A stretch of DNA of 43,784 bases from a virus: the IMG/VR virus record IMGVR_UViG_3300009509_000092, positions 1 to 43,784 of that record. One strand, given 5' to 3'. A model generated the notes under the pieces. It was not told the DNA's origin and ran no database searches. It saw nothing but the letters and a program-made list of their open reading frames with translations. The translations under genes were made by a program, and so were the position numbers. Below, in pieces: positions 6,879 to 29,816 of the stretch. How positions within the stretch are numbered: the stretch's first letter is position 1; each line of letters opens with the position of its first letter.

Positions 6879-7220
6879 TTACCCCTCTTTTTCTAAAAGC
6901 TCTACCAAGTCGCTTTTCTTGGAAAAGCTCGAGGGCTTCAAGCCCTTCTGCCTGGCTATCTTCATCAGCTCGGTTCTCGTAAACTGAGAATAGTCTACGC
7001 CAGCCGTTCCCCCTATCTGGATATCGGCATAGTCATCTGCTGCTGACGACGTGGGCGTAATTCCAGAGATCTCTACTCGCTTGTTACCTTCTAGACCTCT
7101 AAGGTAATGCCTATCGAGAAAAGCCGCCAGAGCAACCAGCACGTCCTTGGCTACCAGCGCCTTTTGAACCCCACCAATATCATCAGCGAATATTTCGACC
7201 TGAAGCTTGATGCTTTTCAT
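6879..7220 (-). CDS. SAP-domain-like protein
   Basis: A 113-residue protein read against its neighbours. Residues 77-111 (YSQFTRTELMKIARQKGL then KKSDLVELLEKEG) match the two-helix SAP or HeH-type DNA-binding motif. The N-terminal 70 residues (IKLQVEIFADDIGG) are unassigned. Ribosome site AAGGGAG lies before the ATG at 7220. As a lone minus-strand gene between plus-strand operons it may be separately controlled, and it is divergent from the ParB/methyltransferase gene with only 31 bp between starts. Likely a nucleic-acid-binding accessory protein. Confidence 0.7.
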   Translation of the reverse strand: MKSIKLQVEIFADDIGGVQKALVAKDVLVALAAFLDRHYLRGLEGNKRVEISGITPTSSAADDYADIQIGGTAGVDYSQFTRTELMKIARQKGLKPSSFSKKSDLVELLEKEG

Positions 7221-7251
7221 GTTCTTTCTCCCTTCACATGAGAGCCATCCT

Positions 7252-8505
7252 ATGCTAGTTTACCTGGCTATGCAAGAATGGAAAAACAGGATAGTCGGCT
7301 ACGAAGAAAAAGACCCCGCAGAGCTGAAAGCAAACCCTCTCAATTGGCGTACACATCCGAAAAACCAGGAGAAAGCCCTAGAAGGTGTCCTTGATGAAGT
7401 TGGGTTAGTCCAGAACATCGTCTTCAATAAAGCGACCGGACATCTGATCGATGGTCATCTCAGGGTTGAGCTTGCCATCAAGCAGAAGCAAGAAAAAGTT
7501 CCTGTCACCATGGTTGAGCTGACAGAGGATGAAGAAAGGCTGATCCTCGCTACTCTCGATCCCCTTGGAGCAATGGCCAACGCCAATGCTGACAAGTTGC
7601 AAGAATTGATTGCTCAAGTTGACACCCAAAACGAGAGCATAAAAGAGCTACTCGCCGACCTGGAGATAGAACACCCAGTTGAAACAGAACCGGGAGAAGC
7701 ACCGGAGCCTAAGATAGATCTAGCTGATGAGCTTCAAGAAAAGTGGAAGACAGAGATCGGGCAGCTATGGGAGATAGGAGGGCATAGGTTATTGATTGGG
7801 GATTGCGCTAAAGATAGTCCCATTATCTTCTATAAAGACAAATATGCATTGCTAGTAACCGATCCGCCCTATGGCGTCTCGTATGCCTCTAAAAATGAAT
7901 TCCTAAACAACCTGGATGAGGGTAATCGCTGTCAATCAGAAATAGACGGAGATCATCAATCGCCAGAAGAAATGGAGCAATTCTGGATCGATGCGTTTTC
8001 GGCTATTAGAAAATGTGCGAAAGATGGAGCGAGTTATTATATTACTGGCCCACAAGGTGGAGATCTTCTTCTTCTTCTTCTTCAATCTCTACGCCAAAGC
8101 AAATTCCCATTAAGACATATGCTGATATGGGCAAAAAACAACCATGTATTAGGGCGTTCAGACTACAACTATAAGCATGAACCGATCATTTATGGTTGGG
8201 TAAACGGTAGCCACAAGTTCTATGGGGGCAGCAGCGAGGTATCGCTATGGGAAATAGATAAGCCCCTAAAGTCCGAGCACCATCCAACCATGAAACCAGT
8301 TGAATTGTTCGCAAGAGCGGTGAAAAACAGTAGCCTAAGAGGGGATATTGTCTGCGATCCCTTCCTCGGCTCAGGTACGACCATGATCGCTTGTGAGCAA
8401 CTAGGACGTAAATGCTACGGAATAGAGATAGAACCCAAATATGCCGCCGTTACCTTGGAGCGTATGCTAGAATTAGGGGTCGAAGGTAAACTGATAGGGG
8501 AATAG
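7252..8505 (+). CDS. ParB-like N-terminal domain fused to a DNA methyltransferase
   Basis: A 417-residue protein from the ATG at 7252; a longer frame to 7207 would overlap the divergent gene. Residues 20-110 carry the ParB/Srx-like block with IDGHLRVELA (66-75). A linker leads to a beta-class methyltransferase: DPPYGV (204-209) precedes FLGSGTTMIA (371-380), with HPTMKPVELF between. DPPY points to N6-adenine or N4-cytosine methylation. This fusion is common in phages beside terminase genes, where it may modify DNA for protection or packaging control. It is the first gene of the long plus-strand late block, 1 bp before TerS. Domain calls are confident; the target site is unknown. Confidence 0.92.
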   Translation: MLVYLAMQEWKNRIVGYEEKDPAELKANPLNWRTHPKNQEKALEGVLDEVGLVQNIVFNKATGHLIDGHLRVELAIKQKQEKVPVTMVELTEDEERLILATLDPLGAMANANADKLQELIAQVDTQNESIKELLADLEIEHPVETEPGEAPEPKIDLADELQEKWKTEIGQLWEIGGHRLLIGDCAKDSPIIFYKDKYALLVTDPPYGVSYASKNEFLNNLDEGNRCQSEIDGDHQSPEEMEQFWIDAFSAIRKCAKDGASYYITGPQGGDLLLLLLQSLRQSKFPLRHMLIWAKNNHVLGRSDYNYKHEPIIYGWVNGSHKFYGGSSEVSLWEIDKPLKSEHHPTMKPVELFARAVKNSSLRGDIVCDPFLGSGTTMIACEQLGRKCYGIEIEPKYAAVTLERMLELGVEGKLIGE

Positions 8506-9230: not shown

Positions 9231-10598
9231 ATGCCAACCGATGATAGCTGGAAAGATCACCTAGTTACCTTTGCGGAGTATCTTTCTCGTGGTAACTGGA
9301 AGCCTTATAGACATCTAACCTACCTAGCCAAAGAGATCACAAAGGCGATAGGTCCAGGCAGCGGTAGACTGATCATCAACATGCCACCAAGGCATGGTAA
9401 GAGCACTCTTGCTTCCCACTGGTTCCCCGCATGGTTCCTCGAGGCTTTCCCAGAGCAGTGGGTAATGCTTTGCTCTTATGAGGCGAGCATAGCGGCAGAC
9501 TGGGGCCGAAGAGTAAGAGACACTTTTAATACCAGAGAGCTTTGGACCAACATACGAGACGACGTGAGAGCTGCTAACCGCTGGTATACTCCAGAAGGCG
9601 GGGGAATGATCACCGCTGGCGTTGGGGGACCGATAGGCGGCAGAGGCTTTCACCTTGGCATCATAGATGACCCGTTTAAGAACTGGGAGCAAGCATACTC
9701 CTCAACATACCGCCGACATCTGCTAGACTGGTTTCAGTCTACTTTCTACACTCGGAAAGAACCCAATGGATCGATCGTCATTATTCAAACCCGTTGGCAC
9801 GAGAACGACCTGGCCGGATGGCTCATAAAAGAACATTCAGACAAGTGGACAGAGATCAACTTGCCTGCTCTGGCAGAGGAGAACGATCCGATAGGCAGAG
9901 AGCAGGGAGAGCCACTATGCTCGGAGAGATATGGCAAGGATGAGCTTGATCGTATCAGGGAGGCCGTGGGATCGAAGGTCTGGTCTGGTCTCTACCAACA
10001 GCGACCAGCACCAGCAGGGGGAGCGATATTCAAACAGGAATGGATCAGATATTGGGAAACACTGCCGACCGTTGAGCTACAGATACAGAGCTGGGATGCT
10101 GCATTCAAGGATGCCAAAAGCTCGAGCTATGTGGTGGGACAGCTCTGGGGAAAGCATGGCTCAGACTTCTATCTGCTGGGTCAGAAAAGAGATCGAATGG
10201 ACTTCGTTTCGACTCTGGCCGCCATCGAGTCAATGACGAAGTTCTGGCCAGAGGCTACGGGCAAACTTGTTGAAGATAAGGCAAACGGACCAGCGATCAT
10301 CTCGACGCTTCAGAACAAGATACCGGGAATTCTTCCCGTTAACCCAAGGGGAAGCAAGGAAGCCAGAGCGCAAGCTGTAGCTCCACTCTGGGAGTCGGGG
10401 CATGTCTATCTACCACACCCGAATATACATACCTGGGTGAGAGACTTCGTTGAGGAGTTGATCACCTTTCCTGCTTCGGCCAATGACGATCAAGTTGATG
10501 CCATGAGTCAGGCTCTCAGTCACTTATCAGAAAGACAACACGCATCTCTTGATATAAAAATTCCAGACTTGACACAGGGCTCTATCTGGCGTATGTAG
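9231..10598 (+). CDS. terL: Terminase large subunit
   Basis: A 455-residue packaging motor. Walker A is PPRHGKS (52-58), Walker B is GIIDDP (143-148), and a coupling motif lies near IIQTRWHENDLAGW (184-197). The C-terminal RNase H-like nuclease shows D289 in SWDAAF, acidic residues in LVEDKANGP (346-354) and NDDQVDAMSQA (418-428). These match the TerL group that uses a PRHGKS Walker A. It translocates DNA into the prohead through the portal and cuts it at ends of packaging. A hairpin and a promoter-like site separate it from the portal gene. Confidence 0.95.
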   Translation: MPTDDSWKDHLVTFAEYLSRGNWKPYRHLTYLAKEITKAIGPGSGRLIINMPPRHGKSTLASHWFPAWFLEAFPEQWVMLCSYEASIAADWGRRVRDTFNTRELWTNIRDDVRAANRWYTPEGGGMITAGVGGPIGGRGFHLGIIDDPFKNWEQAYSSTYRRHLLDWFQSTFYTRKEPNGSIVIIQTRWHENDLAGWLIKEHSDKWTEINLPALAEENDPIGREQGEPLCSERYGKDELDRIREAVGSKVWSGLYQQRPAPAGGAIFKQEWIRYWETLPTVELQIQSWDAAFKDAKSSSYVVGQLWGKHGSDFYLLGQKRDRMDFVSTLAAIESMTKFWPEATGKLVEDKANGPAIISTLQNKIPGILPVNPRGSKEARAQAVAPLWESGHVYLPHPNIHTWVRDFVEELITFPASANDDQVDAMSQALSHLSERQHASLDIKIPDLTQGSIWRM

Positions 10599-10765: not shown

Positions 10766-12094
10766 ATGCCTAGAAAAAAACCGCCTGATAAAGGAACCGG
10801 AGCTGCTTTACTCACCGCAGGAATGTCAAAGGCCGAAGCCTCAAAGGAGATCGGGATCACCGGGCTTGAGGTTTCATCTGGGAAAATATACGAGGAGTTC
10901 CTGACCCAGCTAGAGGGTGAAAAGGGGATCAAGGTCTTCAAGGAGATGTCGGAGAATGATCCGACGGTCGGTGCTATTCTTTTTGCAATAGAGATGCTGA
11001 TCAGGCAGGTTGACTGGCTGGTCGAGCCCGCCTCTGAAGACAAGGAAGATGTAGAGCGAGCCGAATTCCTCGAGTCCTGTATGTGGGATATGGATATACC
11101 ATTCATAGAGGTCATCTCAGAGATCCTCAGCATGTTGATCTATGGCTATTCGATACACGAGGAGGTTTACAAAGTCAGAAAGGGATTGAGCTTCAAGGAG
11201 GGCGCGGTCTCCTCTAAATACGATGATGGTAGGATAGGCTGGCGCAGGTTACCGATCAGAGCGCAGGAGACGATCGATCGCTGGGAGTTCTCTGACAATG
11301 GCGAAGTGTTGGGCGTGTACCAGGTAGCTCCACCTAGCTATATTGAGGTATATATCCCAGCAACAAAGCTTGTGCATTTCAGGACTACTGCAAAAAAGGG
11401 CAACCCAGAGGGCAAATCGATTCTGAGGACAGCCTATCGTCCATGGTACTTCAAAAAGAACATCGAGGAGATTCAGGCGATAGGCGTTGAACGCGATCTG
11501 GCCGGTTTGCCGATGGCACTGGTCCCACCCGAGATGCTTTCAGAGAGTGCTTCATCGCTTCAGAAAAACCTGCTAGCGCAGATCAAGAAGATCGTTCGCA
11601 ATGTAAGGATCGACAGCCAGGCAGGGATCATCTTTCCGAATGCTTTTGATACAAATGGAAATAAGCTTTATGAGCTAACCATGCTCGGGCCAAGCAGGAT
11701 CAAGGCATTCAATACTAGAGAGATCATGACTTACTATGATCAGCGAATAGCAACTACTGTGCTGGGCGATTTCGTTCTTCTGGGTCATGAGAAGGTCGGA
11801 TCGCTAGCTCTGGCATCTAGCAAAACAGGGATGTTTGCAACCGCGATCGGGGCTTGGATGGATTCGATTGCCGAGACGCTAAACAGAACAGCGGTCCCTA
11901 GACTATTCGCCCTTAACGGCTATTCAGGAGAGTACCCCCAGATCATTCATGGGGATATCGAGAGCAGAGATCTTGCAGAGCTTGGGGCTTTCATTACGGC
12001 GATGGCCAATGCTGGAGCTATGCTCTTTCCTGATGAGGAGCTTGAAAGATATCTAAGGCGGCAGGCAGGGATACCAGAGCAGATCTCTGAATAA
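10766..12094 (+). CDS. Portal protein (DUF935/Mu gp29-like)
   Basis: A 442-residue protein. The region ENDPTVGAILFAIEMLI with RQVDWLVEPA (about 64-91) is typical of the DUF935-type portals, and later ILSMLIYGYSIHEEVY and GNPEGKSILRTAYRPWYFKK are also typical portal sequences. It forms the ring at the unique vertex through which TerL packages DNA and to which the neck attaches. AAAGGATC is upstream of the ATG. The gene is followed after 1 bp by a MuF-like gene, the usual order. Confidence 0.92.
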   Translation: MPRKKPPDKGTGAALLTAGMSKAEASKEIGITGLEVSSGKIYEEFLTQLEGEKGIKVFKEMSENDPTVGAILFAIEMLIRQVDWLVEPASEDKEDVERAEFLESCMWDMDIPFIEVISEILSMLIYGYSIHEEVYKVRKGLSFKEGAVSSKYDDGRIGWRRLPIRAQETIDRWEFSDNGEVLGVYQVAPPSYIEVYIPATKLVHFRTTAKKGNPEGKSILRTAYRPWYFKKNIEEIQAIGVERDLAGLPMALVPPEMLSESASSLQKNLLAQIKKIVRNVRIDSQAGIIFPNAFDTNGNKLYELTMLGPSRIKAFNTREIMTYYDQRIATTVLGDFVLLGHEKVGSLALASSKTGMFATAIGAWMDSIAETLNRTAVPRLFALNGYSGEYPQIIHGDIESRDLAELGAFITAMANAGAMLFPDEELERYLRRQAGIPEQISE

Positions 12095-12095
12095 A

Positions 12096-13055
12096 ATGTT
12101 TCAGATCTTACCAGCAAGCAAAGGAAAGAGAAGAGTTACCAAGGCGATGCCAGGAGCAGAGCGGTCCCTTCGGATCCTCGCTGGCAGAGTGCAGGGTGAT
12201 ATATTTCGATATCTGATGGAGTCGCTAAGGTTCCTCAAGGATCAGGTAGACATTGATGAGCTGGTCAGAGTAATAGGGAAAGAAGACCCGCTGGGGTATG
12301 TTGATGCCTCTGGAATCGAGAACATCAAGGGGATCATATCTGGACTGGATCTAGAAATATCAAACGGACTGATACTCGGCGGAAGGAGTGCAGCTCGTGA
12401 ACTAGGTATGGATCTATCAATAGATCTTACCAGGGCAAGCGTTACAAAGTGGAAGGAAAAATACCTCAATGGTCTGGTGTCTGATATTGGCAATAATTCA
12501 AAGGCTGCCGTTAAATACATTATAGAAGAAGGAATAGACAAGAACAGACACCCTCTCAAGATCGCCAGAGATGTCAAGAATGGTATAGGGCTAAACGATC
12601 GACTGAGCATCGCCGTCGCCAGAAAACGATCTGCACTGGAAGCCGCAGGAGTACCCGAGGCAAGAATTGAAAAAACGATCGCCAGATATCACGAGAAGCT
12701 GTTGAAGTACCGAGCGGAGATGATAGCGAGGACAGAATCCGTAAGAGCGATCAATCATGGCAAGCTGGAAATGTGGAAACAGCTTAAAGATGGAGGGTCT
12801 CTGCCACCATCGGCGGTAAAGATCTGGTTAACTTCTATTGATGAGAAGGTTTGTCCTATCTGCCGTCCATTACACTATACCCAGAAAAAACTTGGTGAGG
12901 AGTTCGAGAGCAATGGCTTTTCCTCTGAGGCTCCACCTATTCATACTACGTGCCGATGCACATTGATAGTAAGCAGGGAAAAGAGAGAAAGAGGAGAGCC
13001 AGAAGAGATCGAGGGTTTGCCGGGCAAGTGGCCGACTCTTGAACCGCTGGAGTAA
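12096..13055 (+). CDS. MuF-like minor head protein
   Basis: A 319-residue protein with the C-terminal MuF/SPP1 gp7 signature: MIARTESVRAINHGKLEMWK, then DEKVCPICRPLH and PPIHTTCRCTL. The two CxxC/CxC pairs likely bind zinc. N-terminal helices probably sit in the prohead interior next to the portal. Its ATG follows the portal stop by one base. Likely role: minor capsid protein injected or used in head morphogenesis. No toxin domain is attached, unlike some MuF proteins. Confidence 0.9.
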   Translation: MFQILPASKGKRRVTKAMPGAERSLRILAGRVQGDIFRYLMESLRFLKDQVDIDELVRVIGKEDPLGYVDASGIENIKGIISGLDLEISNGLILGGRSAARELGMDLSIDLTRASVTKWKEKYLNGLVSDIGNNSKAAVKYIIEEGIDKNRHPLKIARDVKNGIGLNDRLSIAVARKRSALEAAGVPEARIEKTIARYHEKLLKYRAEMIARTESVRAINHGKLEMWKQLKDGGSLPPSAVKIWLTSIDEKVCPICRPLHYTQKKLGEEFESNGFSSEAPPIHTTCRCTLIVSREKRERGEPEEIEGLPGKWPTLEPLE

Positions 13056-13059
13056 GCCG

Positions 13060-14904
13060 ATGCAAAGCAGAGAATATCTTGAAACACTGTTAGAGAAAGT
13101 CAAAGACCAGATCCCTGATGCCATCTGGAGGGAGCTGCACAGGGCAGCGATGCCAAAGGCTGGCGGAAAGGCATCATGGAGAGAGCCAGAGATCACGATA
13201 CTGGAGAAGCTCGCTCTAGCAGAGATGCGACCATCGATGCTAACAAAGGTTGAAGACGACGAAATAAAGGCAGCGTGGTTAAGGCTCAATCAATGGTATG
13301 GGCAAGCAAAGAGAAGAAAACGCCCGATCGAGGATATCGTTAACGCTGCTGTTTGGGTCAAGCAAGAGCTTGATAAGCGCGGGATCGGCTACGATAAAGA
13401 TGGAGCGTTGTCCCAGGAGACAGAAAAGATCTCCAAGGCTTTGATGGAAGTCAAGCCCTCTGGGAACGATAATGGAGATCTGATTAGTACCAAGGATGTT
13501 CTGCCTCATTTCAAAGACTTCATGCTGAGAAAGGAATACATAACTGTTGTCGGCGGGATCTGCAACAACGAAAAGGGAACCAAGGGAGATATAGACATTC
13601 TGGTAAAAGACTGCGAAGAACTACCAGATGAATGGAAGAAAGTGATCGAATTTCGTTTAATGAGGGCACTGCCTGAAGAGATGAGAGAAAGGGTTCATTT
13701 TCTTTATGACGATCTGAAAGGTCCATTTACCAATCATATTCCGATCTACAATCTGCTGTTTCAGAGATGCAACCCAGATAATGAAGTGATCAAGATGTCG
13801 GCAGAAGAAACAGAGAAACAAGAGGACGTAGGAACCAGAGGAGAGGAAGCAGAGAAAGCCTGGCAGGCTCATTGGCAAGAAATGTACCCGTCAAGCGGAA
13901 AGGGTCAATTTGTTTATCAACATCATTGGAGAGGATTGACCGAGGAGGAGAAAGACGACGGTGAAGAAAAGCTCCTACAGACCGACCACAGCTTGCATGG
14001 TGACATCAGGCTGAAGGGACCTGGATCAGAGCTGTTTGGATTTACCATTGCCCTCGGAGAAACGAGCGAAAACAAAGGCAACGATAAGCTATACGATCTC
14101 AAGGGTGAGAACAGGCTGAGAACATTTCTCAAGCTTTCTCAGCCATCGTCATGGTTGAGTGTCGGCGAGGATGGCCCTATGATAGTTGAGCCCGGAGGCG
14201 TAGGAGCAACGTCAGACAAATGGGCAAAGTTCTTCAAGGAAGACGGTGGAGAATATGAGATCGGCGTCTGGAATAGGCATCTAGTCGAACTGTTTCTGAA
14301 AGGGAAACACCTAAAGGGGCGCTATGTCTTCCAGTCGGCCCCGTTAGCAGGCGGTAATGAACGGGTCTGGTTAGTCAGCAAGCCGGAAGATCAGAAGCCT
14401 ATGGCAGAGACACTTGATCTCGAGCAACTAATTGCAAAGCTGAAGCCAAGGGATCATCAATGGCTAGTCTGGGCAAAGCCAGGAACGAGGCCGCAGCTTG
14501 TCAATGTGAAGACAGGCAAGATCGTCAAGAGCCTGCTAGCACCGATCCTCTGCACCAACGATGAAAAGCAGATCATCTATTCCATAGTAGCCGAGCCGGA
14601 TACCGTCGATCTCCACGGTCATAAGCTCTCGGTTGATAACATCGAGAGGGCTTGCCATAAATTCATGGATCACCTCAAGGTTGGGCTCGAGCACAAGAAC
14701 CCAGCGGCAGCCAAGGTGATCGAGAACCTGACGATCCCGCCAGATGTAAAGCAGTTCTACGGCAAGACCGTTAAGCCTGGGACGTGGATCGTTGGGATAC
14801 ATATTCAAGACAGCGATACTTGGAGGGATGTAAAGAATGGTAAATACACTGGCGTCAGCCTTGGGGGATACGCGAGAAAGGTCCCAGATGGTAAAAACGT
14901 ATAG
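13060..14904 (+). CDS. Multidomain protein: NTase-like, LigD phosphoesterase-like and XkdF-type prohead protease regions
   Basis: A 614-residue protein started at the ATG at 13060, with GGAG 7 bases upstream; the frame extends to a TTG at 13039. Residues 1-140 are unassigned. Residues 141-250 have VVGGICNN and GDIDILV (176-182), resembling a minimal nucleotidyltransferase. Residues 283-445 resemble the LigD 3'-phosphoesterase: FVYQHHW (284-290), LHGDIRL (312-318; H313, D315, R317) and LKGRYVF with VWLVSKPED. A second catalytic His of LigD is not obvious. Residues 500-607 (YSIVAEPDTVDLHG, LEHKN, TWIVGIHI, YTGVSLGGYARK) are XkdF-like protease, with H545 and S600 as candidate catalytic residues. 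It lies exactly where a prohead protease should. Protease identity is likely; the extra activities are unproven. Confidence 0.78.
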   Translation: MQSREYLETLLEKVKDQIPDAIWRELHRAAMPKAGGKASWREPEITILEKLALAEMRPSMLTKVEDDEIKAAWLRLNQWYGQAKRRKRPIEDIVNAAVWVKQELDKRGIGYDKDGALSQETEKISKALMEVKPSGNDNGDLISTKDVLPHFKDFMLRKEYITVVGGICNNEKGTKGDIDILVKDCEELPDEWKKVIEFRLMRALPEEMRERVHFLYDDLKGPFTNHIPIYNLLFQRCNPDNEVIKMSAEETEKQEDVGTRGEEAEKAWQAHWQEMYPSSGKGQFVYQHHWRGLTEEEKDDGEEKLLQTDHSLHGDIRLKGPGSELFGFTIALGETSENKGNDKLYDLKGENRLRTFLKLSQPSSWLSVGEDGPMIVEPGGVGATSDKWAKFFKEDGGEYEIGVWNRHLVELFLKGKHLKGRYVFQSAPLAGGNERVWLVSKPEDQKPMAETLDLEQLIAKLKPRDHQWLVWAKPGTRPQLVNVKTGKIVKSLLAPILCTNDEKQIIYSIVAEPDTVDLHGHKLSVDNIERACHKFMDHLKVGLEHKNPAAAKVIENLTIPPDVKQFYGKTVKPGTWIVGIHIQDSDTWRDVKNGKYTGVSLGGYARKVPDGKNV

Positions 14905-15229
14905 CACAAAAGAAGTCTCATTAAAGATCGGGGTATCAATGGACACCCTGCAATTCTGGGCACGGCAAGAGATGCTCACACCGGAGGCCAGCGGAGAGGG
15001 CAAGCGGCGACGGCTTACATGGAGTGAGGATGATGTATCTGCGGCTGAAGTTCTGCGAGATACCCAGAGGATAGGAGAGCTGATGCGAAAGGCCAGAGAA
15101 GCAAAGGAGACTGTTTTCGATGGTCGTCTGGTCGCTGCTGGCTTTTCCGGGGTAAAGAAGATCTCTCCAGATACTCCAGCGATCGAGATACTCCGCAGAG
15201 CCGGACCTTTCTGTATTCTGCTAGGCTAA
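14888..15229 (+). CDS. MerR-like helix-turn-helix protein
   Basis: A 113-residue protein from the ATG at 14888, preceded by AAAGG. Residues 5-45 (YSTKEVSLKIGVSMDTLQFW, then RRRLTWSEDD) are a MerR-type winged helix. The rest (LMRKAREAKETVFDGR) is helical, with an unusual hydrophobic end (AGPFCILLG). It overlaps the protease gene by 17 bp. A DNA-binding protein inside a head cluster is unusual; it may regulate late transcription or be a DNA-binding head component. No effector-binding domain is present. Confidence 0.65.
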   Translation: MVKTYSTKEVSLKIGVSMDTLQFWARQEMLTPEASGEGKRRRLTWSEDDVSAAEVLRDTQRIGELMRKAREAKETVFDGRLVAAGFSGVKKISPDTPAIEILRRAGPFCILLG

Positions 15230-15240
15230 TTTTTTTAGTC

Positions 15241-15288
15241 TGACTGTTGACACTCAGTCAAAGCATCGGTTTTTCTGTTACCCGATGC
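15241..15288 (+). promoter_or_regulatory. Two adjacent hairpins, the second enclosing the scaffold start codon
   Basis: TGACTG (15241-15246) pairs with CAGTCA (15255-15260), loop 8. Then GCATCGG (15263-15269) pairs with CCGATGC (15282-15288), loop 12. The second stem contains the ATG at 15285-15287, so in mRNA the scaffold start would be base-paired. Possible translational control; no ribosome site is visible for this start. Confidence 0.5.
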
Positions 15289-16091
15289 CAATAGATCTAG
15301 AAGATCTTGAAGTACATGAGATCAGCTTGGTTAAAAACCCGGCTGTACCTTCCGCGAAGTTTTTGATCCTAAAACATCAAGAGGAGATTGACGAAATGTC
15401 AGATAAAAAGGAATTGTCTCCCGAGCTGACCTCCAAGCTCGAGGAGATACTCAAGGCAGAGAAGCTCGAGGGTGACAAGGCTCAAAAGGTCAAGGATGCC
15501 CTGAAGATTCTCAACGAGATCAAGGGCGATGTCCCTCCCGCGATCTTCAACATGCTGGCCGGTCTGGTAGGCTACCCGACCGCCAAAAGTGCAGACGATC
15601 CTCCCGCGCCAAAGCCAGAGCCAGAACCAAAGCCAGAGCTTGCACCAGAGGTGAAAGCACAGCTCGAGGAGATCAAGAAAGCAAAGGAAGACTCCGATGC
15701 GAAGATCGCCGAGCTGCAAAAGAGCCTGGACGCCGAAAAGGAAAAGGCTTTGACAAAGGAGTATCTGGAGAAAGCAGCCGGATATTCTCACGTCCCCATG
15801 AAGACCGAAGATCTCGGAGCACTGATGAAGGACGTATCAGCCAAGATCCCGGAGCACAGCGATAAGCTGATCGAGATGCTCAAGGCGGTAGATGGAGCGA
15901 TCGGTCAGTCTGAGATCTTGCAGGAGCGAGGATCGAACCTGGGCGGGACCAGAGACGTTGAGGAAAAGATCAACGCGAAGGTCAAGGAGCTGATCACCAA
16001 AAATACGGGACTCACCAAGGAACAGGCTTACGTCCAGGTCCTCAATGAGAACCCCGAGCTATACTCGGAATACGAGGCAAAGAGGAGCTAA
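15285..16091 (+). CDS. Capsid scaffolding protein (probable)
   Basis: A 268-residue acidic, Lys/Glu-rich helical protein with heptad-like stretches (VKAQLEEIKKAKEDSDAKI), a proline-rich linker (PPAPKPEPEPKPEL) and a position between protease and capsid, all typical of a scaffold. The N-terminus (LEDLEVHEISLVKNPAVPSA) resembles the start of XkdF-type proteins (x-ISLV-x-x-PA), so the longer reading looks conserved. A second start, ATG 15396, has a better ribosome site (GAGGAG) and would give a 231-residue form. It may be made in two sizes. It would be removed or cleaved during head maturation. Confidence 0.72.
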   Translation: MPIDLEDLEVHEISLVKNPAVPSAKFLILKHQEEIDEMSDKKELSPELTSKLEEILKAEKLEGDKAQKVKDALKILNEIKGDVPPAIFNMLAGLVGYPTAKSADDPPAPKPEPEPKPELAPEVKAQLEEIKKAKEDSDAKIAELQKSLDAEKEKALTKEYLEKAAGYSHVPMKTEDLGALMKDVSAKIPEHSDKLIEMLKAVDGAIGQSEILQERGSNLGGTRDVEEKINAKVKELITKNTGLTKEQAYVQVLNENPELYSEYEAKRS

Positions 16092-16475: not shown

Positions 16476-17450
16476 ATGAAACCAACACTTTCAGACGTTC
16501 ACGTTAATGCGCCGCTCACCAATATCGCTGTGGCCTATATGCAGGCAAAGGAAAACTATGTGGCAACGCAAGCTTTCCCCACCGTGCCTGTACTCAAGCA
16601 GGGCGATCGTTACTTTGTCTTCGACAAGGGCGATCTTCTGCGAGACGAGGCACAGCTCAGAGCACCCGGCACCGAGTCGGCTGGCTCGGGAGTGGCGATC
16701 GACAACACGCCGAGCTATTACTGCGATGTCTACGCCTATCACGAGGACGTTAGCGATCAGCTCAAGGCTAACGCCGATGCTCCCCTGAGCCCTGAGAGGG
16801 ACAGCACCGAGAACGTGATGCAGAAGCTCATGACCAAGCGAGAGCGGCTCTGGGCAGCTTCGTATTTCGCAACATCGGTCTGGACCACTGACAGGCAGGG
16901 CGTTGCCGCTGGACCGACTGGGACCCAATTCCTTCAGTGGGATGCTGCAAGCAGCGATCCGATCACTGATATCGGTGTGTCGAAGGAAAACATCCGAGCC
17001 CTGACAGGATTCATGGCCAACACCCTCGTGGTTGGTCCCCTGGTGTGGAACATCCTCAAGAACCACTCGGCGATCCTGGACCGGATCAAGTACACCCAGA
17101 AGGGCATCGTCACCGAGCAACTGGTTGCCCCCCTGCTGGGAGTTGATAAGCTTCTGGTGGCCAATGCGATCTACAACTCAGCGATCGAGGGACAGACCGC
17201 AGTCATGGCCGACATCTACGGCAAAGCTGCTCTGCTCACCTATTCTGCTCCCGCTCCAAGCATCCGTCGTCCATCGGCTGGTTATTGCTTTTCCTGGAAA
17301 GGCTTGATCGGCTCCGGTGAGGGCGGGGTGAGGATCAAGAAGTTCCGCATGGAACATCTCGAGAGCGACAGGATCGAGGGTGAGATGGCTTGGCAGTTCA
17401 AGGTGGTTTGCGCTGACTGTGGCGTATATATGTATGATGCCATCGGCTAG
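16476..17450 (+). CDS. Major capsid protein
   Basis: A 324-residue protein with a strong AAAGGAG site. NAPLTNIAVAYMQAKENYVA then QAFPTVPVLKQGDRYFVFDK at the N-terminus, and QLRAPGTESAGSGVAIDNT, are characteristic of a well-known group of phage major capsid proteins, probably HK97 fold. No obvious delta-domain is present, so scaffolding would come from the separate scaffold gene. Codon choice looks smoother and more biased than in neighbours, as expected for a highly expressed protein. Confidence 0.9.
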   Translation: MKPTLSDVHVNAPLTNIAVAYMQAKENYVATQAFPTVPVLKQGDRYFVFDKGDLLRDEAQLRAPGTESAGSGVAIDNTPSYYCDVYAYHEDVSDQLKANADAPLSPERDSTENVMQKLMTKRERLWAASYFATSVWTTDRQGVAAGPTGTQFLQWDAASSDPITDIGVSKENIRALTGFMANTLVVGPLVWNILKNHSAILDRIKYTQKGIVTEQLVAPLLGVDKLLVANAIYNSAIEGQTAVMADIYGKAALLTYSAPAPSIRRPSAGYCFSWKGLIGSGEGGVRIKKFRMEHLESDRIEGEMAWQFKVVCADCGVYMYDAIG

Positions 17451-28606: not shown

Positions 28607-29155
28607 ATGGCTTGGACAGCAACAGGCGGTGGAAGTCATGAAGGAGCTGATTGGATCATCTCATCTGGAACTTCCGTCGGCGGAACGCATACGAATGTCG
28701 GTATATTCAGAGTGAATAGCGGTATTACAGCAACCCTATCGACGGGGACAGAGTTCAGAGTAGATTGCGTTGAAGCTGATATTCAGGGAACGATCAGCGG
28801 TGACTCGAAAGGCCAAAGCCCTGGAGCTGGCGGTGGTGGAGGCACCGGAGGATCGACGTGTTGCACTGCAGGGACGGTGGGATCTCAAGGATCAATCGGT
28901 GGCGGTGGATCGTATGGAGGAGCCGGTGGATCGTATGGAGGAGCCGGTGGCGCGGGGCAATCTGGCGGCAGTGGTGGTGCGCAGTGGGGAACGCCTCCAG
29001 AGTTTGCAAGCTGCGCTGGTGGCAACGGCGGTGGTGGCTCAACCGCTGGGAGTACAGTAGGAACTAGCACAGGACTTGATCTTTCGAGGGGAGGAGGAGG
29101 AGGAGGAGGTTGTGGAGGCGGTGGCGGTGGCGGTCAATGTCCAGGAGGCGGATAA
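28607..29155 (+). CDS. Glycine-rich tail fibre, first part (frame interrupted)
   Basis: A 182-residue protein with a beta-rich N-terminus (FRVNSGITATLSTGTEFRVD) followed by long glycine-rich tracts, including two exact 21-bp repeats (28904-28945). Glycine-rich tips of this kind are receptor-binding domains in other phages. The frame ends at TAA 29153-29155 inside a glycine run, and the following frame continues the same type of sequence (see the next entry). The product may be one split fibre or two proteins. Confidence 0.65.
   Translation: MAWTATGGGSHEGADWIISSGTSVGGTHTNVGIFRVNSGITATLSTGTEFRVDCVEADIQGTISGDSKGQSPGAGGGGGTGGSTCCTAGTVGSQGSIGGGGSYGGAGGSYGGAGGAGQSGGSGGAQWGTPPEFASCAGGNGGGGSTAGSTVGTSTGLDLSRGGGGGGGCGGGGGGGQCPGGG
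28904..28945 (+). repeat. Direct 21-bp tandem repeat in the glycine-rich fibre
   Basis: Two exact copies of a 21-base unit beginning GGTGGATCGTATGG and ending GGAGCC. Each encodes seven residues (GGSYGGA). Such repeats can expand or contract without frame loss. Confidence 0.8.
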
Positions 29156-29156
29156 A

Positions 29157-29816
29157 ATGGGCGTAGGAGATAATGGGTCCACTGGATCCACCGGGGGATA
29201 TGGTGGAGGTTATGTTTGGATTTCTGCATCAAGAAAAATATCTATCACAGGGGAAATCGATTGTGATGGACAAGTCGGATATTCTGGCGGAAGCGGTGGA
29301 GGCAACGGTGAATATGGACAATACGGTGGTGGTGGTGGAGGAGGAGGAGCGGGTTCGGGCGGTGGTTCTGGCGGTGGCATTTTGCTTCAAGCTCCGAGCG
29401 TTAATTTTTCAGGAGCTACTTTATATGCAAGAGGAGCAGCAGGCGGCAATGGAGGCGACGGCGGGGATAGTGACGGTGACGTATGGCCAGCAAATGGCGG
29501 CAATGGGGGACCAGGAGGAGGCGGTGGAGGTGGTGGGAGGATAAAAATTCTACACGCTAGACCGCAATCAATTTATTTATCGGAAGGGACAACTTATGTG
29601 CTGGCCGGTAACGGCGGCTCTGGTGGTTCCGGCGGTTCCGGTGGCTCTGGATCTCCCCCTGACCCTGGAAGCCCAGGAGCTTCGGGTAATAACGGAACGG
29701 CGGGAACATATGCAAAAGGATCTGATGGAACATCGGAGGTAGCGTACAATCCCAGAATATCGTATCAAGAGGGCGGAACCTACTTGAAACGCAAACGAAA
29801 GAACTTGATGAACTGA
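29157..29816 (+). CDS. Glycine-rich tail fibre, second part
   Basis: A 219-residue protein started at the ATG at 29157, with AGGAGG eight bases upstream that itself encodes glycine in the previous frame. It reads YVWISASRKISITGEIDCDG, then long glycine runs, ILLQAPSVNFSGATLYARG and finally GRIKILHARPQS. Each beta unit resembles fibres with alternating glycine-rich loops and short sheets. It continues the domain begun in 28607-29155 but in the +1 frame. A shift at about 29150 would join them. Confidence 0.6.
   Translation: MGVGDNGSTGSTGGYGGGYVWISASRKISITGEIDCDGQVGYSGGSGGGNGEYGQYGGGGGGGGAGSGGGSGGGILLQAPSVNFSGATLYARGAAGGNGGDGGDSDGDVWPANGGNGGPGGGGGGGGRIKILHARPQSIYLSEGTTYVLAGNGGSGGSGGSGGSGSPPDPGSPGASGNNGTAGTYAKGSDGTSEVAYNPRISYQEGGTYLKRKRKNLMN

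Follow-up and report, generated by a model that had tools for sequence, protein, structure and literature searches.

The DNA analysed here (the window) spans 43,784 bases and is the record of a tailed virus (G000). In it, an intact ORF on the plus strand, open over 614 codons, encodes the protein referred to below as P0001. Its ATG at 13060 lies 4 bases past the stop of the upstream ORF (13055) and agrees with the 'MASREYLE' starts of homologues, the sole longer start being a TTG at 13039. The surrounding genes are those of a head cluster, in the order terminase large subunit (9231), portal (10766), MuF-type gene (12096), P0001, scaffold-like gene (15285), decoration-like gene (16095) and major capsid protein (16476), so that P0001 follows the MuF-type gene and precedes those for scaffold and capsid (Table 1); the scaffold-like and decoration-like labels were assigned from size, position and weak matches. 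A small MerR-like HTH ORF at 14837–15229, unusual for a head operon, overlaps the 3' end of the P0001 gene and separates it from the scaffold gene.

Table 1. Features of P0001 and of the neighbouring head genes, with coordinates in the window.
Feature	Position	Strand	Evidence
Terminase large subunit	9231..10598	+	phrog_38, E 2e-106
Portal protein	10766..12094	+	phrog_113, E 7e-86
MuF/SPP1 gp7-type head morphogenesis protein, directly upstream of P0001	12096..13055	+	phrog_3517, E 1e-33
P0001, head-protease-linked polyvalent protein, NTERM-NTase-PE-XkdF	13060..14904	+	Open frame, domain profiles
N-terminal helical domain, residues 1-118 ('AWLRLNQWYGQAK..IEDIVNAAVWV'), family-specific	13060..13413	+	Relatives' identity, AF2
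Minimal Pol-beta-type NTase-like domain, residues 136-235; G165-G166, D177, D179	13465..13764	+	Motif, sub-threshold profiles
LigD-type 3'-phosphoesterase (PE), residues 268-447	13861..14400	+	Profiles, hhalign, AF2 and Foldseek, residue alignment
Conserved PE-protease linker, residues 448-495, 'WxKPGxxPxxxDVxTGK'	14401..14544	+	Trp and Pro invariant in 18 sequences
XkdF (Peptidase_S78_2) head maturation protease, residues 498-607	14551..14880	+	PF14550
Scaffold-like protein, next head gene, with 'VHEISLVKNPAVPSAKFLILK' at 15312-15374 in its N-terminus	15285..16091	+	Carries XkdF strand element
Major capsid protein	16476..17450	+	phrog_1005, E 4e-86

The only Pfam match of P0001 to reach threshold was that of its C-terminal end to PF14550 (77.3 bits against a cut-off of 24, E 1.3e-21). 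With the catalytic-type residues His545 and Ser600 kept as well (His in 68 of 69 and Ser in all 67 aligned family members) and the gene placed in the head cluster, the XkdF-type protease end proposed in the preliminary description was borne out, and we regard the profile-based assignment as certain. The other motifs named there were likewise recovered at their positions, namely GG..GDIDILV at about 165–182, FVYQHH at 284–289, LHGDIRL at 312–318 and WLVSKPED at 437–444. A strand element that other XkdF proteins hold in-chain, 'EISLVKNPA..AKFLILK', was found at the 5' end of the scaffold gene, which may provide a link tying the protease to the scaffold. A similar split was seen in approximately 20 relatives and apparently also in PAK_P3, while the element is N-terminal in Dulem virus 37 and C-terminal in the same chain in L097; since its position varies in this way, the split was rejected as a special feature of this virus.

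The stand-alone XkdF proteases of PAK_P3 (gene 3) and Dulem virus 37 represent the same protease in the same slot before the capsid gene, and differ from P0001 in being 138–411 aa long and in having no DNA-processing front domains. Since the 138-aa XkdF-like head protease of PAK_P3 (L147, 2919–3335) stands alone in this slot, the front domains of P0001 are an addition to the protease. The same PAK_P3 protein is matched by PHROG 1530 and, like it, is labelled 'DNA methyltransferase'; because the protein is a stand-alone XkdF protease, this name was rejected as a link to methylases. The label recurs in many related records.

Neither of the two front domains, NTase and PE, reaches a Pfam threshold in P0001 alone, and phmmer of P0001 against the PDB gave no match. 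At the level of the family, LigD_N (PF13298) was matched by 17 of the 21 members scanned (best 7e-6), with no other Pfam family matched, and the first PE of L008 gave 1.1e-7, below the cut-off. When the PDB was searched by hmmsearch with the PE family profile, the five best matches were all LigD-type PE sequences, and hhalign to real LigD PE domains gave an E of 8e-6. The AF2 model of residues 254–614 (pLDDT 85) led to the same result, as the best seven Foldseek matches were all LigD-type PE structures (best E 1.2e-6, probability 1.00; TM(target) 0.80 for 3p43), followed by none that were significant. Profiles and predicted structure thus confirm a LigD-type fold for the PE at family level, as had been suggested from motifs. 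That the motifs of P0001 are more than chance follows from this structural match together with their conservation in 76 distinct relatives.

The residues of the PE were matched to LigD numbering with the list in PMC8656161 and by aligning them to genuine LigD proteins. His42, His48, Asp50 and Arg52 of LigD correspond to H289, H313, D315 and R317 in P0001, and the metal triad (His/His/Asp) is invariant in all 76 aligned domains spanning it, as is the Arg in every member that covers it; Gln40 (Q287 in P0001) is Gln or His in the family and Ser61 is replaced by Gly. It had been doubted that the domain is active, since the second catalytic His expected in LigD enzymes was not obvious. This doubt stands in part: His84 is replaced by Gln (Q361 in P0001; Gln in 67 of 77 aligned domains) and Tyr88 by Trp (W365; 77 of 77), both residues being essential in P. 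aeruginosa LigD (PMC8656161), but the metal triad and Arg52 are fully kept. Two family-specific residues, H407 (70 of 77) and E410 (76 of 77), are in addition nearly invariant. As judged from the alignment, the metal site is retained and the phosphate-contact site has been rebuilt, which sets these domains apart as a divergent clade rather than standard LigD PEs. With the triad kept and His84/Tyr88 exchanged for Gln/Trp, the domain is likely an active but altered phosphoesterase.

The assignment of the domain in front of the PE as an NTase is supported by its motif. The pattern G-[GS]...D-h-D is kept in 59–60 of 60 members (G165-G166...D177-I-D179 in P0001), and hhalign to NTP_transf_2 proteins gave an E of 0.0015, with the alignment centred on the GS..DID motif. 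In the column tentatively assigned to the third acid, P0001 has an Asn that is unique among the 60, where Asp is found in 49 and Ser in 10. Profile support was weak, however: the Pfam values for NTase families were all sub-threshold, both in P0001 (0.15–0.027, DNA_pol_B_palm giving 0.027) and at best in the family (DNA_pol_B_palm 0.0023, NTP_transf_2 0.0092). The AF2 model of this domain was poor, profile searches of the PDB with either the NTase or the N-terminal region recovered no NTase structure, and Foldseek with the poor N-terminal model gave no match. The earlier reading as an NTase is consequently upheld as likely, on the basis of its motif and the sub-threshold profiles. The N-terminal domain, which is 50–59% identical between P0001 and relatives, was modelled as helical with a pLDDT of up to 96, and a known homologue was not found for it.

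A family-wide search, with the PE as search criterion, yielded 76 distinct relatives after removal of duplicates, nearly all from uncultured viral contigs (IMG/VR), most of them occupying the same slot among the head genes. According to domain profiles built in this analysis, all 76 contain the PE, 69 the XkdF domain, 60 the N-terminal helical domain and 60 the NTase, while an ATP-dependent DNA ligase is present in 58, an OB domain in 56, a uracil-DNA glycosylase (UDG) in 47 and a methyltransferase (MT) in 20; the XkdF domain was not found in the same ORF in L009, L043, L065 and L115. Most relatives are larger than P0001, the commonest order being NTERM-NTase-(MT)-ligase-OB-(UDG)-PE-XkdF, and the UDG, ligase and methyltransferase were above the Pfam threshold in most members scanned. 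Single or few members add, according to Pfam, a Dam-type N6-adenine methylase, a 2H phosphoesterase, MBL, DHH, the anti-CBASS Acb1, a zeta-toxin-like kinase or RyR. Portal, MuF or TerL genes were found upstream in 53 of the 64 loci with enough flank, and scaffold, decoration or MCP genes downstream in 50 of 62. The motif-I Lys of the ligase is kept in 55 of 56 members, the motif being KxDG in 30 and KxNG in 25, a division that may mark differing ligase chemistry or substrate. Some members depart from the common layout. L008 (3429–5966) has MBL and two PE copies, with a protease end that appears S78-like, not XkdF-type (weak match). On the contig shared by L030 (5962–8988) and L086 (6741–9038) the polyprotein is apparently split across two ORFs, one holding NTase, methyltransferase, RyR, the anti-CBASS Acb1 and a zeta-like kinase and the other ligase-OB-PE-XkdF. 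In L124 (2089–3381) the N-terminal domain and the NTase are separated by a possible insertion resembling a LAGLIDADG homing endonuclease.

Comparison of the separate domains of P0001 pointed to a mixed origin. By its N-terminal, PE and XkdF parts P0001 falls in with L022 and related members (62% identity in XkdF), FastTree support being 0.98 for the PE and 1.0 for XkdF. The NTase, by contrast, is 23–30% identical to the L022 group versus 44–52% to an ANMV-1-like group, and was placed with L119, L120, L122 and L131 (support 0.85). An NTase is missing from L022 itself, which carries a DHH domain at the N-terminal end. On these sequence comparisons P0001 is a reduced chimera, with its NTase from the ANMV-1-like lineage and the remainder from another. 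The two lineages in P0001 and the domain content of L022 together indicate that cargo has been swapped between fixed PE–XkdF cores.

Among 50,697 phage records, the 'ATP-dependent DNA ligase' of ANMV-1 was the sole match to the NTase query among the matches listed (E 3e-15), and the ANMV-1 record was also the sole match to a PE query with a relative's sequence (E 4e-5). This protein (AJP62006, from KP703175) has the same NTase type as P0001 (43% identity), a ligase and a PE-like region; unlike P0001 it is 866 aa long, and XkdF was not found in it by Pfam. Its ligase is unmentioned in the ANMV-1 paper (PMC4372165). In the GTDB genome collection, a deeper profile retrieved two loci, on contigs titled Bacillota and Dehalococcoides MAGs, where an earlier scan of genome contigs with a shallower profile had given no locus.

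The PE shares its fold, metal triad, Arg52 and Gln40 with those of bacterial and archaeal LigD/NHEJ proteins (PF13298; 3n9b, 3p43, 3p4h, 5dmp), and differs in an insertion of approximately 20 residues after His42, in the changes of His84 to Gln and Tyr88 to Trp, and in the near-invariant His407 and Glu410. Bacterial LigD of NHEJ combines an AEP polymerase and a ligase in one protein and has Ku as partner; P0001 has neither this combination nor a Ku that could be found, and is instead fused to a capsid protease. No AEP-type domain was present among the Pfam matches of P0001 and the scanned relatives, a search for Ku in 21 virus records (that of P0001 included) was negative, and neither ligase nor UDG was found in the genome of the P0001 virus, which therefore encodes no complete end-joining pathway. 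Of 16 ligase-positive virus records, 15 had the fused ligase as their sole PF01068 match. Mycobacteriophages Omega and Corndog, which according to the work cited in PMC7719229 encode Ku and use the host LigD for infection, are phages relying on NHEJ-type end processing at infection, as the present viruses would. Where they combine their own Ku with host LigD, the viruses described here would bring the PE and usually a ligase, without Ku, tied to the head protease.

A closer parallel in overall design is provided by the polyvalent proteins (Iyer et al. 2017), which, as set out in PMC5512222, have C-terminal assemblin-like proteases, with packaging inferred and processing thought to occur. Similar to these, P0001 holds at least two disparate enzymatic domains in one chain and is encoded among portal–terminase packaging genes, and, as in that account (PMC5512222), the in-chain protease is always C-terminal (there assemblin-like) and 2H and methylase cargo occur. 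What differs is the constant core, here PE plus XkdF, and the cargo, here a BER/NHEJ-like repair set; XkdF, LigD, uracil-DNA glycosylase and DNA ligase are absent as cargo from the main text of PMC5512222, and a search of the open-access literature yielded no account of XkdF/LigD-PE/ligase/UDG fusions. The theme is that of the already known polyvalent proteins, while the repair cargo and the constant PE–XkdF core are new.

Prohead proteases of the XkdF type work inside proheads. Considered together with the processing and packaging thought to occur in polyvalent proteins (PMC5512222), this site of action makes import of cargo by fusion to the protease the most economical reading, and both the fusion and the gene neighbourhood suggest packaging. 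We consider it on balance probable that P0001 is a packaged cargo polyprotein, tethered to the head protease and cleaved at maturation, which accompanies the DNA into the cell and heals the ends of that DNA. Architecture, family, synteny, conservation of catalytic residues and domain swapping are observations, and packaging, cleavage, delivery and substrate belong to the proposed model. Weighing against it are the replacement of His84 and Tyr88, the Asn and the weak profile support of the P0001 NTase, the lack of ligase and UDG in this virus, the negative search for Ku, and the four members in whose ORF XkdF was not found. The protease, located in the procapsid with the scaffold, would carry the DNA-processing enzymes fused ahead of it into the prohead and clip the polyprotein during maturation, and the freed enzymes would remain with the packaged DNA and enter the next cell alongside it. 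The delivered PE would there heal damaged or blocked DNA ends by removing 3'-phosphates or 3'-ribonucleotides. Larger relatives would add uracil removal and sealing of nicks or ends, while the P0001 virus would bring the end-cleaning step alone and leave sealing to a host ligase. The preliminary description had considered treatment of DNA ends near the portal or on terminase products; as ligase, UDG, methylases and Acb1 share the slot, a packaged multi-enzyme cargo appears favoured over such a terminase-specific role.

In its fullest form, this proposal would see in the family a virion-packaged, protease-released repair kit (3'-end healing, uracil excision and ligation, with methylation or anti-CBASS add-ons) that mends or circularises the genome as soon as it enters, in effect a capsid-delivered, Ku-independent NHEJ/BER-like system whose PE has a rebuilt phosphate site (Gln/Trp plus new His/Glu). 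To this version we give slightly less than an even chance. Phage genomes can spend long periods outside cells, where nicks, blocked 3' ends and uracils build up, and on entry their linear DNA is open to attack by nucleases; if true, the proposal would provide an example of a virus that carries along its own repair enzymes via the capsid protease, and would widen the polyvalent-protein concept beyond anti-host effectors to include genome repair. The family also offers new PE, ligase and UDG enzymes.

The enzymes could instead act in the infected cell and not in the virion, with fusion merely coupling their late expression to head assembly; released into the cytoplasm or at the portal, they would mend genome concatemers, or ends cut by terminase, ahead of packaging or while it proceeds. 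The late head operon, in which P0001 follows the MuF gene so closely, would suit this, as would a set of PE, ligase and UDG for cleaning DNA ahead of packaging, and a fused ligase that is nearly always the only one in the record may also serve replication. However, XkdF-type proteases are generally expected to act inside proheads, and Acb1 and other anti-host-type cargo in the slot are easier to reconcile with delivery into a new host than with a step preparing DNA for packaging, leaving this explanation rather unlikely. Quite improbable is the idea, raised in the preliminary description, that the front domains are retired enzymes kept as structural or DNA-binding spacers without catalysis, for instance in internal scaffolding or DNA organisation. 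It would account for the family-wide loss of LigD His84/Tyr88, the change of Ser61 to Gly, the missing third NTase acid in P0001 and the Asp-to-Asn change in ligase motif I in 25 members. Against it, the triad and Arg are invariant where spanned despite PE domains only about 47–58% identical to that of P0001, H407 and E410 are near-invariant, the UDG and ligase motifs are retained, and the turnover and swapping of cargo suggest selection for activities. An assembly or gene-call artefact fusing unrelated genes, to which the occurrence of the full arrangement in metagenomic records only might be attributed, has a negligible chance of being correct, being refuted by the family-wide survey with its 76 distinct members on many independent contigs, kept order, lack of stop codons and residue-level conservation, and by the two more cases in contigs of genome assemblies.

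A PADLOC scan of P0001 gave a single weak match (0.022), which was discarded. Elsewhere in the window, reading of the sequence indicated a ParB-like and DNA methylase fusion at 7207–8505, just upstream of the terminase genes. At 28607–29816, overlapping ORFs in two frames represent consecutive parts of seemingly one glycine-rich tail-type protein, probably owing to a frameshift or a sequencing error in low-complexity DNA.
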